Positions 24,184-33,904 of a DNA stretch of 43,035 nucleotides are shown here, in pieces. The stretch covers positions 1 to 43,035 of the forward strand of contig CALMST010000191.1 in NCBI GenBank assembly GCA_937872315.1, read 5' to 3'. This DNA is from an uncultured Ignavibacteria bacterium. GTDB taxonomy: Bacteria; Bacteroidota; Ignavibacteria; Tepidaquicellales; Tepidaquicellaceae. The number at the start of each line of letters is the position of its first letter. The first letter of the stretch is position 1. The position numbers and the translations under genes are program-made. The notes under the pieces were generated by a model. It did not search any database and was not told the DNA's origin. It was given only the letters and a program-made list of their open reading frames with translations.

Positions 24184-24209
24184 AATAAAACCGTTTAAAC
24201 GGTTTTATT
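24184..24209. repeat. Left palindrome of the IS200-type element
   Basis: Perfect 26-nt palindrome centred between 24196 and 24197 (core CCGTTTAAACGG), about 16 nt before the transposase ATG and touching its ribosome site. As RNA it would fold into a 13-bp stem (less a few loop bases) just before the start, which may limit translation, as reported for IS200. Confidence 0.8.
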
Positions 24210-24225
24210 GGAAGGAAGGAGAAAG

Positions 24226-24678
24226 ATGGATAACACAATGATCAGATTATGGATTCACATTTTTTTCAGCACAAAGGATTGCATGCCATTGATTAAGGAA
24301 TCTATTGAGAAGCAACTTTACTTTAAAATTAAAATTAAGATAACTGAAGAATATCAATCACATGTGAAAAACATTAATGGAACAGAAAACCATGTTCATA
24401 TATTATTTTCATTAAATCCGAGTTTTAGATTGACTGATATTATGAAAAATATCAAAGGAGAAACATCTCATTGGATAAATCAGAATAAGTTTTTAGATGC
24501 GAAATTTTCATGGCAGAAAAGTTATAATGCATACTCAGTAAGCGAATCTAAACTTGAAGAAGTTAACAGATATATAAGCAATCAAAAAAAAATCCATGAG
24601 AAAATCTCTTTTTATGACGAGAGAGAATTGTTTTTAAAGAAAATCGAACATTATAACAATAGTGATAAAACCGTTTAA
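24226..24678 (+). CDS. tnpA: IS200-like Y1 transposase
   Basis: The protein (150 residues from the ATG at 24226) is a single-strand transposase of the HUH/Y1 class. The metal-binding HUH motif is NHVHILF and the catalytic Tyr is in NRYISNQKKIH (Tyr-x-x-x-Gln), both in the usual order; IKGETSHWINQNKF and FSWQKSYNAYSVS are also family-typical. Length is normal, so it looks active. I prefer ATG 24226 to the TTG at 24208 because GGAAGGAAGGAG lies just upstream of the ATG. The last codons and the TAA stop fall inside the right palindrome, so the end of the protein (DKTV) is encoded by it. No TnpB is present. Confidence 0.9.
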   Translation: MDNTMIRLWIHIFFSTKDCMPLIKESIEKQLYFKIKIKITEEYQSHVKNINGTENHVHILFSLNPSFRLTDIMKNIKGETSHWINQNKFLDAKFSWQKSYNAYSVSESKLEEVNRYISNQKKIHEKISFYDERELFLKKIEHYNNSDKTV

Positions 24679-29348: not shown

Positions 29349-30731
29349 ATGTCAATCTTAATCAAAAACGGACGTGTGATCACAGCTTCGGAAGATTACA
29401 CTGCAGATATATTCATAAAGGATGAAAAAATTTCTTCTATAGGCGAAGATCTTAAATATGATGCGGACGAAGTAATAGATGCATCCGGAAAATTTGTATT
29501 CCCGGGTGGTATCGACCCGCATGTTCATCTTGATATGCCATTCATGGGAACTTTCTCAAGTGATAATTATGAAACCGGAACTCTTGCAGCTCTTCACGGA
29601 GGAACAACAATGGTTATAGATTTTATTCTTCAGACTCAGGGTAAATCACTTTATTCAGCATTGGAAGAATGGAGAGGAAGATCGAATGGTAATTGCTATG
29701 GTGATTATTCTTTTCATATGGCGGTAACGGATTTTAATGATGAAACAAAGAAAGAAATAAAAAAGCTTATTGAAGCTGAAGGAATTACTTCATTTAAAAC
29801 TTTCATGGCATATAAAGGTGCCTTAATGATAGATGACAGACAGATGATTGGCCTGATGAATGAAGTAAGAGATAATGGAGGGATAGTGACAGTTCATGCA
29901 ACTCACGGAGATATTATAGATTTTCTAATTGCCAAACATGTTTCCGAAGGTAAACTTTCTCCGCTTTATCATTATTTATCCCAACCAGAGATAACTGAAA
30001 CTGAAGCTTCAGGCAGATTTGCAGATATGGCTTATCATACAGGAGTGCCTGCTTATATAGTTCATATGACTTGTGAAGGAGCATTGAATGAGATCCGGAG
30101 AGCTACCGAACGAAATCAGAAAGTTTTTGTAGAAACCTGTATTCAATATTTACTTCTTGATGCATCTTTATATGAAAAAGATTTTGAAGGTGCAAAATGG
30201 GTTATGAGTCCGCCATTAAGAGAAAAGAAAGATCAGAAGAGTTTATGGGCAGGTTTGAATCAGGGTTTAGTACAAGTAGTAGGAACAGATCATTGTCCGT
30301 TTGAATGGAAGAAAAAGCTTATGGGCGAAAAAGATTTTTCTAAAATTCCGAACGGACATCCCGCAATTGAACACAGAATGGAATTGCTTTATTCAGAAGG
30401 AGTGGAAATGGGAAAGATCAGCTTGAATAAGTTTGTAGAGGTGACATCAACAAATGCTGCGAAGATATTTGGAATGTTCCCGAGAAAAGGAACAATTGGA
30501 ATTGGTTCGGATGCTGATGTAGTAATTTTCGATCCGGATAAAAAACATGTGATCTCTTCGAAGACACATCACATGAATGTTGATTATTCAGCATATGAAG
30601 GATGGGAAGTAAAGGGGAAAGTGGAAACGGTGATGTTGAGAGGAAGAGTTGTTGTAGATAAAGGGAATGTGAAAGTTCAGAAGGGTTATGGAGAATTTAT
30701 AAAGAGAGGGAAGGTTTCGAAGGTAATATGA
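29349..30731 (+). CDS. hydA: Dihydropyrimidinase/D-hydantoinase
   Basis: This amidohydrolase opens the ring of dihydrouracil/dihydrothymine or hydantoins to N-carbamoyl amino acids. At 460 residues it has the whole binuclear metal set: His58 and His60 in DPHVHLDMPF, the carboxylated Lys150 in SFKTFMAYKG, His183 in VHATHGD, His239 in YIVHMTCEGAL, and Asp314 in VVGTDHCPF. These, plus the DYSFHMAV strand, separate it from dihydroorotase and allantoinase. It follows the NCS1 transporter by 16 bp. The enzyme for the next step (beta-ureidopropionase/N-carbamoylase) is not adjacent. The transcript end is marked by an inverted repeat pair and a RAYT gene. Confidence 0.95.
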   Translation: MSILIKNGRVITASEDYTADIFIKDEKISSIGEDLKYDADEVIDASGKFVFPGGIDPHVHLDMPFMGTFSSDNYETGTLAALHGGTTMVIDFILQTQGKSLYSALEEWRGRSNGNCYGDYSFHMAVTDFNDETKKEIKKLIEAEGITSFKTFMAYKGALMIDDRQMIGLMNEVRDNGGIVTVHATHGDIIDFLIAKHVSEGKLSPLYHYLSQPEITETEASGRFADMAYHTGVPAYIVHMTCEGALNEIRRATERNQKVFVETCIQYLLLDASLYEKDFEGAKWVMSPPLREKKDQKSLWAGLNQGLVQVVGTDHCPFEWKKKLMGEKDFSKIPNGHPAIEHRMELLYSEGVEMGKISLNKFVEVTSTNAAKIFGMFPRKGTIGIGSDADVVIFDPDKKHVISSKTHHMNVDYSAYEGWEVKGKVETVMLRGRVVVDKGNVKVQKGYGEFIKRGKVSKVI

Positions 30732-30746
30732 TTTTTTATTACCGGG

Positions 30747-30844
30747 AAGTGTGGCACATTTTTTCTAAAGAAGTGTGAACTTTATATTTAAGTTTAATCT
30801 TTATAAATTGTCTGCTATCTTTATTAAGAAAATGTGCCACACTT
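30747..30844. repeat. REP-like inverted pair upstream of the RAYT gene
   Basis: AAGTGTGGCACATTTT at 30747-30762 is repeated in exact inverse at 30829-30844 (AAAATGTGCCACACTT), 66 nt apart; a partial third copy AAGTGTG sits at 30771. The pair lies between the dihydropyrimidinase stop and the RAYT start, matching the REPIN layout (two REPs in inverse order) near RAYT genes. Alternatively the long stem could terminate the upstream transcript. Confidence 0.65.
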
Positions 30845-30884
30845 TGTAAGTAAACCGGATAACGAATGAATAGGAGGATTAATT

Positions 30885-31460
30885 ATGAAATACAGGGAAG
30901 GTCAGATTTTACATGTTTACAATCAGGGAAACAACCGGCAAAAAATATTTTTTAAAAAGATAAATTATATCTATTTTTTAAAAAAAGTAAGAAAATATAT
31001 CCATCCATATTGTGACATTTTATCCTACTGTCTGATCCCAAATCAATTTAATTTTCTGATATATGCGAATTCTTTTACTGTCTCTAAAGATGAAAAAAAC
31101 AGATATCCTTTAAGTGAAGGACTTAGAATTTTATTGAGCTCATACTGCAAAGGAATAAACGTTCAGGAAAATCGCACAGGTTCACTCTTTACTCAAAATT
31201 CACACATCAAATGTCTAGATACAGATCCATATTCTGCTTTAGCGTGCTTTGTTTATATCCTTCAGAAACCAAAAAAATCAGGCTATGTATTAAATCCAGC
31301 AGACTGGGAATTTAGTGCATTTAAAGATTATGCGGGATTAAGAAATGGAACACTTTGTAATAAAATTAAAACATTTAACGTGCTGGGAATTGATTCCGGC
31401 GATATAAAATTGTTTTCAGACTCTATTATTCCAAATGATTTATTGAAAAGTATTTTTTAA
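30885..31460 (+). CDS. RAYT-like (REP-associated) transposase with mutated HUH motif
   Basis: The 191-residue protein is of the Y1/RAYT type (HVYNQGNNRQKIFF opening; YCDILSYCLIPNQF; ENRTGSLF; WEFSAFKDYAGLRNGTLCNK ending), closely resembling Bacteroidota transposases of about 190 residues. The HUH motif that should read PNHFHFLI is PNQFNFLI: both metal-binding His are gone. The catalytic Tyr survives in FVYILQKPKKSGYV, but the usual YIHxNPVKAG context is altered. Despite this the frame is unbroken. AGGAGG lies 7 nt before the ATG, a stronger ribosome site than most genes here. It has probably lost DNA cleavage; recent decay or domestication are both possible. REP-like repeats lie just upstream. 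Confidence 0.85.
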   Translation: MKYREGQILHVYNQGNNRQKIFFKKINYIYFLKKVRKYIHPYCDILSYCLIPNQFNFLIYANSFTVSKDEKNRYPLSEGLRILLSSYCKGINVQENRTGSLFTQNSHIKCLDTDPYSALACFVYILQKPKKSGYVLNPADWEFSAFKDYAGLRNGTLCNKIKTFNVLGIDSGDIKLFSDSIIPNDLLKSIF

Positions 31461-33337: not shown

Positions 33338-33904
33338 ATGCATTTTATAAAATCTCTAATATTTATTTTTATTTTTTTTACTATTGGCTCAGATCTGTTT
33401 GCGCAGCAGAAACAGGATAAGTTATCTCTCATAGAAAACAATATTGCTTTTGATAATGTTGAAAATTCATCATTAAACAGTCTTGGATTAATAGCAGTTG
33501 TTTTTCCGGTTAATCCGATCTTTTTGATTGAGAACAAAAAATTTTATGCGGGATTAACAAAGGAGTTTTCACTAAGTCTATATCCTGTCGGCAGATTAGC
33601 GGCTGAGTATTCATTGATATTCAGGAAAACGGATCTGAATCAATTAAGATTTTCTTATAATTATGACATTCCCGTGGTAGCAAGTGATTTTGCTGTAATA
33701 TTTCTGTCTTTGGGCGGTGGATATTTTACGGATTTTAAGAAGTATGGATATTTTCCACAGACTTCAGCTAATTTTCTTTTACCAGCAACAGATGATATAG
33801 CAGTTAATGCTTATTTCAAAGTAAGAAATGTTTTTGTTAATGAAGATGAAGGTTCGGATGTATTTGATGTGTCTCTTGGATTCGGAACCATATTCAGTTT
33901 ATAA
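33338..33904 (+). CDS. Small outer-membrane beta-barrel-like protein
   Basis: The 188-residue protein has a signal peptide ending in DLFAQ (about residue 22) and then alternating hydrophobic/polar strands (KFYAGLTKEFSLSLYPV, RLAAEYSLIF, QLRFSYNYDI, AVIFLSLGGGYF, ISAYFKV-like and SLGFGTIFSL at the end). The strand pattern and aromatic-rich ends suggest an eight-strand barrel, but I recognise no family. It follows the T9SS protein by 18 bp and may be cotranscribed. It converges on pgl 34 bp later with no clear terminator between. Confidence 0.6.
   Translation: MHFIKSLIFIFIFFTIGSDLFAQQKQDKLSLIENNIAFDNVENSSLNSLGLIAVVFPVNPIFLIENKKFYAGLTKEFSLSLYPVGRLAAEYSLIFRKTDLNQLRFSYNYDIPVVASDFAVIFLSLGGGYFTDFKKYGYFPQTSANFLLPATDDIAVNAYFKVRNVFVNEDEGSDVFDVSLGFGTIFSL

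Follow-up and report, generated by a model that had tools for sequence, protein, structure and literature searches.

Why would a gene of the RAYT type stay open after the residues that hold the metal in its product have been replaced? In TnpA_REP proteins, the metal ligands are two histidines and an Asn or Gln that follows four residues past the tyrosine (N119 in E. coli; PMC6006769), and in the protein described here all three of these positions are occupied by other residues. The gene lies in a stretch of 43,035 nucleotides from an uncultured Ignavibacteria bacterium (contig CALMST010000191.1), and this stretch as a whole is referred to as the window. A preliminary description of this DNA, which was made from the letters alone, had begun its region at position 30747, i.e. 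at the left arm of a repeat pair (the gene itself starts at 30885), and had offered two readings for the loss of the ligands, either a very recent death of the gene or a domesticated DNA-binding RAYT. What had been read directly was reproduced: the unbroken frame of 191 codons with its strong AGGAGG, the motifs LIPNQFNFLI (with Q54 and N56) and YILQKPKKSG (with Y124 and K128) in the translation, and the two 16-nt repeats upstream, which are exact inverse copies of each other (Table 1). As set out below, we consider it probable that the gene is a vertically inherited RAYT derivative that would no longer cleave DNA, would bind REP hairpins, and is kept by purifying selection.

Table 1. Positions of the RAYT-derived gene, its motifs and its surroundings in the window
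Feature	Position	Strand	Basis
hydA (dihydropyrimidinase-like), upstream syntenic anchor of all four orthologues	29349..30731	+	
Left REP arm AAGTGTGGCACATTTT of the REPIN-like pair	30747..30762	+	Exact inverse match, genome pairs
Right REP arm, inverse copy; 16-bp hairpin with the left arm, 66-nt spacer	30829..30844	-	Sequence, folding
Shine-Dalgarno AGGAGG	30872..30877	+	Sequence; 7 nt upstream of the ATG at 30885
Gene of the RAYT-derived protein, 191 aa; Q54, N56 and K128 replace all three HUH-site metal ligands, Tyr124 kept	30885..31460	+	ORF, alignment, fold, column conservation
Codons CAA TTT AAT (Q-F-N) where the HuH motif stands	31044..31052	+	Q54 = CAA 31044-31046, N56 = AAT 31050-31052
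Y124-I-L-Q-K128; nucleophile Tyr kept, Asn ligand at Tyr+4 replaced by Lys	31254..31268	+	Alignment to 4er8

Fold and family of the protein

By curated models, the assignment of the protein to the RAYT family is weak: there is no match in Pfam, including none to Y1_Tnp, and with the NCBIfam model REP_Tyr_transpos (NF047646) the protein reaches 18.3 bits, which is under the curated cut-off of 80. By its predicted fold and by the alignment to RAYT relatives, the assignment is firm. An AlphaFold model that was built from 33 window and locus proteins (pLDDT 91.8, pTM 0.90) has its best structural match in the PDB with 4er8, which is E. coli TnpA_REP with a REP hairpin (Z 16.0 over 153 residues, 2.6 A), and the next matches, IS200-type transposases, do not exceed Z 9.4. 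A PDB search with a two-sequence profile gave no match, but with 33 sequences it led to 4er8, and the profile alignment places Y124 on Y115 and K128 on N119 of that protein (4er8 motif YIYIN). The helix is of the class 2 type with a proline at Tyr+5, and the class 1 IS200/IS605 signature (HUH plus Y---Q) is absent from the window protein. A separate IS200-type Y1 transposase with HVH and a Y---Q helix is encoded at window positions 24208-24678 (+); it scores 82 bits with Pfam Y1_Tnp and is apparently intact.

Like TnpA_REP as a class 2 Y1 HuH enzyme, the window protein thus has the fold, the position of the tyrosine and the Y-xxx-xP helix, and it is encoded by one gene of its type, which sits at a stable locus and is flanked by inverted REPs that recur in other parts of the genome. 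Unlike TnpA_REP, it has neither the HuH histidines nor the Asn ligand, it falls short of the NCBIfam threshold, and its REPs lack GT[AG]G, a tetranucleotide that is also missing from the REPs of Quentin subclass 2.6. The RAYTs of Bacteroidota and Ignavibacteria that resemble this subclass (NHFH, YIHQNP) are mostly 35-51% identical to the window protein over the full length and share with it the motifs HIYNRGNN, R-x-G-x-LF-x-Q and W141 as well as GTAG-less REPs elsewhere in the genome, but their triad is intact. Because the HuH motif and the Asn ligand were both looked for and neither is present, the window protein is a RAYT-derived homologue that stands outside the RAYT nucleases. We infer that its action corresponds to the REP-binding part of what a RAYT does.

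Loss of the metal site in orthologues

A scan of contigs with the single window protein found no relatives, and an alignment-based scan found 80 relative loci from Bacteroidota, Balneolota and Ignavibacteria; relatives at E <= 1e-15 occur in 14 of the 44 genomes of the order. Four syntenic orthologues from three genera lie directly 3' of the same hydA gene, namely those of the window genome (G000), of a second species of the same genus (G002, 84% identity) and of G028 (53%) and G030 (47%), each of which belongs to another genus. The HuH triplet reads QFN in the first three and QFQ in G030, and the Tyr+4 residue, which is Asn in intact relatives, is Lys in both congeners, Leu in G028 and Ser in G030. 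Positions 54 and 56 are therefore amides (Gln, and Asn or Gln) in all four members, though overall identity drops to 45-53%, and between the congeners the codons CAA TTT AAT of the window and CAG TTT AAT of G002 differ synonymously, with Gln retained. Nearly all other aligned relatives keep H-x-H...Y---N. Among 96 aligned relatives, an alignment that includes most of the 80 loci and from which two incomplete rows were set aside for this count, the only two other departures at the His and Asn positions are L043 (HFE, Thr) and L099 (HIL).

In the tree, the four orthologues form one clade (support 100/97), and the grouping persists when the ligand columns are masked (SH-aLRT 88). In the 81 intact relatives, 30 columns are conserved to at least 93%, and of these only H54, H56, N128 and the neighbouring M51 (a conservative change to Ile or Leu) are changed in all four members, and H10, N13, G15, N17, G99, L101, F102, Y124 and W141 are left unchanged, the catalytic Tyr (Y124) being invariant. 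Since the genes form one clade, still group with the ligands masked, and have their common changes confined to the ligands and M51, the loss of the metal site is, as read from the aligned sequences, specific, shared and old. A sequencing or assembly error is ruled out, as the replacements are found in four genomes, three of which come from separately deposited assemblies.

The sister species G002 has a second RAYT (L014/L043, G002:C77, ORF 1474-2118 of L014) with HFE, Thr at Tyr+4 and a long branch, and this gene perhaps lost its metal site independently.

REP repeats and REPIN-like pairs

For an arm with up to three mismatches, 0.5 matches per window would be expected by chance. In the whole genome, the exact AAGTGTGGCACA occurs eight times, in the form of four perfect inverted pairs, and TGTGGCACAYTT gives five inverted pairs and one lone match within a coding frame; a chance repeat was rejected, as the exact arms come in pairs and reversed controls occur 0 and 1 times. 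In keeping with the REPIN-like nature that had been proposed for the window pair, the five pairs in the genome are inverted, extragenic and able to form hairpins. They sit in gene gaps, immediately 5' of a gene start or 3' of a stop, and fall into two length classes, with 57-58 or 90-95 bp from core to core. As single-stranded DNA, the window pair forms a hairpin of 16 bp (z -6.2), and all five tested pairs are strong hairpins (z -5.5 to -8.7). The arms follow the pattern A[ACGT]GTGTGGCACA[TC]TT; the nucleotide preceding GTG differs among the elements (A, C, G, T), the arms agree in all but one element, and a 5' GT[AG]G is absent. Intrinsic terminators were also considered and rejected, because the stems are long and perfect, yet no T-run follows the right arm.

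HUH-intact relatives from the sister family identify the repeats as the REPs and REPINs that belong to RAYTs of this type, since they carry a related REP, TCGTGGCACGA, with the same GTGGCAC core. These relatives show the same pair architecture and spacing around their RAYT, and many of the TCGTGGCACGA copies form pairs 79-82 apart, some of them clustered. In three of their genomes there are 55, 29 and 33 exact copies, as compared to about 10 sites in the window genome, which suggests that the ligand-less lineage has a small REPIN population. As with the REPINs described by Bertels and Rainey (2011), the elements are inverted extragenic REP doublets that form hairpins and are tied to a RAYT, but there are only about five pairs per genome, there are two length classes, and signs of recent insertion within the genus are absent. 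The high copy number and insertion polymorphism of a replicating REPIN population were hence not found, and the sites that are readable in congeners are shared.

Two further observations concern other repeat and protein families. In the same genome as the window, an HUH-intact RAYT of another subfamily (L005, G000:C147, 2030-2472) is followed by a dense near-tandem array of REP-like GATGCCATC/GATGGCATC. In G002, a protein of ~490 aa without Pfam match (L025, G002:C193, 711-2171, minus strand) has several to dozens of diverged paralogues per genome in the six genomes searched, which represent three genera.

Orthologous REPIN sites were located via their flanking genes. The sites at the RAYT, slt/rluD, pfkA/permease and M20 peptidase genes are common to G000 and G002, and the slt and com sites are also found in G001, the com gap of G002 being a contig end. 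In seven orthologous comparisons, the arms show 0/182 changes versus 51/284 aligned positions in the spacers; this arm conservation is partly biased, as the elements were found by exact arms, yet none of the orthologues looked degraded. Among 29 genomes of the family, only G000, G002 and G028 show the long paired pattern, and all three have the gene. In G028 two REP pairs flank the gene itself, and in G030 two direct REP copies lie at its 3' end (L029 2060-2127), where they read in frame as ...NVPHFQNVPHFS and give the protein a longer C-terminus. The REPINs of genus g1 at slt, pfkA and com are not present in other genera, and as these three sites are empty there, the spread of some of the elements may post-date the loss of the metal site, unless they were lost elsewhere or moved in trans by another RAYT. 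Remnant-like g1 sites are seen in G031, in the slt gap (10/13; 12/1000 shuffles) and in the gap downstream of hydA (11/13; 6/1000), and no remnants of the pfkA and com REPINs were found in the gaps of other genera.

Could the site still work in another form? In principle, it may have been rebuilt from amides, with the carbonyls of Gln and of Asn or Gln holding a divalent ion (a ‘QUN/QUQ’ variant of HUH), and REP cleavage would then persist, perhaps slowly. The retention of amides at 54 and 56 in all four members looks as if the site were still working, the nucleophile Tyr is invariant, some of the elements at the three g1 sites that are empty elsewhere may have spread after the change, and Gln is known as a true ligand in place of the second His in the HUQ Reps of circoviruses (PMC9973303). 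In those Reps, however, only one His has been exchanged and the triad is completed by Glu, whereas all three ligands are replaced here, the same four genes having Lys, Leu or Ser as the third, and the literature searched yielded no HUH enzyme in which both His are replaced. About five pairs, whose positions coincide within the genus wherever they can be compared, moreover stand against the 29-55 copies of intact relatives, and we regard an amide-rebuilt site as unlikely. It is distinctly improbable that the repeat pairs owe their persistence to a separate role, as mRNA hairpins or as protein sites between genes, and that the gene only shares their history. Such a role would agree with the position of the pairs next to gene starts or stops and with the perfect arms of the slt and com pairs in G001, which persist despite the loss of the gene from the hydA locus, but the paired long form is confined to genomes with the gene, two pairs flank the gene in G028, intact relatives have the same architecture around their RAYT, and the absence of a T-run means that the pairs are not standard terminators.

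Purifying selection and gene losses

Since both congeners carry the loss, all divergence between G000 and G002 post-dates it by parsimony, and the clean test of constraint is confined to this pair, as synonymous sites are saturated in deeper pairs. By NG86, dS is 0.58 and dN 0.083, resulting in a dN/dS of 0.144, with 0.037 for the neighbouring hydA in the same comparison, and codon ML gives an omega of 0.131 with rejection of omega = 1 (2dlnL 55.8); a ratio well below 1, as the preliminary description had proposed to look for, is therefore found by both methods. The congeners differ by 46 synonymous and 36 nonsynonymous changes, where neutrality predicts about 66 of 82 to be nonsynonymous (P 4e-13). 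As intact RAYT pairs have an omega of 0.055-0.065, i.e. about half of that of the ligand-less pair, these sequences point to a real but somewhat weaker constraint on the ligand-less frame than on intact RAYTs. The gene is dispensable, because it has been deleted in G001 and lost in G031: in G001 (L046), the region 3' of hydA has lost the RAYT gene along with parts of the adjoining genes, and in G031 the gene is absent and a REP-like remnant is left. The deletion junction of G001 seems to keep a piece of the gene for a 188-aa protein (window 33338-33904).

That the gene is dying, with catalysis lost, no role left and a frame that survives by chance during decay, would fit these losses, the weaker constraint and the few REPINs, but it is strongly disfavoured by the 46 synonymous against 36 nonsynonymous changes between the congeners, by frames that are open in three genera, and by changes that are focused on the metal ligands and not scattered among the conserved columns. 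A very recent death, the first reading of the preliminary description, is rejected, since the loss is shared with a congener and two other genera and purifying selection acts between the congeners. Domestication is the better-supported branch, because the repeat has further pairs in the genome and the orthologues share the Gln/Asn-type loss in open frames; it stands in the form of a derivative that probably no longer cleaves, may bind DNA and may have a function in the host.

Possible mode of action

The events at this locus may be described as follows. A RAYT (TnpA_REP) lost its divalent-metal site in a common ancestor of three or more genera of one Ignavibacteria family, and the derivative has since been retained by purifying selection. 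Without the metal, the protein would no longer nick and join REP single strands, but it would keep the RAYT fold and could bind TGTGGCAC REP hairpins when these form by extrusion in single-stranded DNA or in RNA. EMSA of other TnpA_REP proteins was run without divalent metal (PMC8266576), so that the metal site need not be required for REP binding. The REPIN in the 5' region of the gene itself may be one such binding site, which would make autoregulation possible, and at the four further REPINs that are fixed in gene gaps the protein could act by occupancy, in a regulatory or structural role. We give about even chances to the more specific view that this is a separation-of-function RAYT, in which the entire metal site is gone while selection maintains the protein as a host factor that binds REP hairpins at few fixed REPINs.

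Significance for the RAYT family

RAYTs have been called domesticated, yet they are held to copy REPINs still, at low rates (PMC8049555), and the main census of the superfamily excluded proteins without the core motifs as probably non-functional (PMC6006769). Filtering by HUH hides genes like the one described here. With a ligand-less clade that is under selection in the tested pair, and with intact controls from the same order, the benefit of REP binding can be examined separately from that of cutting. A gene of this kind can therefore help in testing how RAYTs serve their hosts. If the separation-of-function reading is true, RAYTs could be of benefit to bacteria without cleaving DNA or replicating REPINs.
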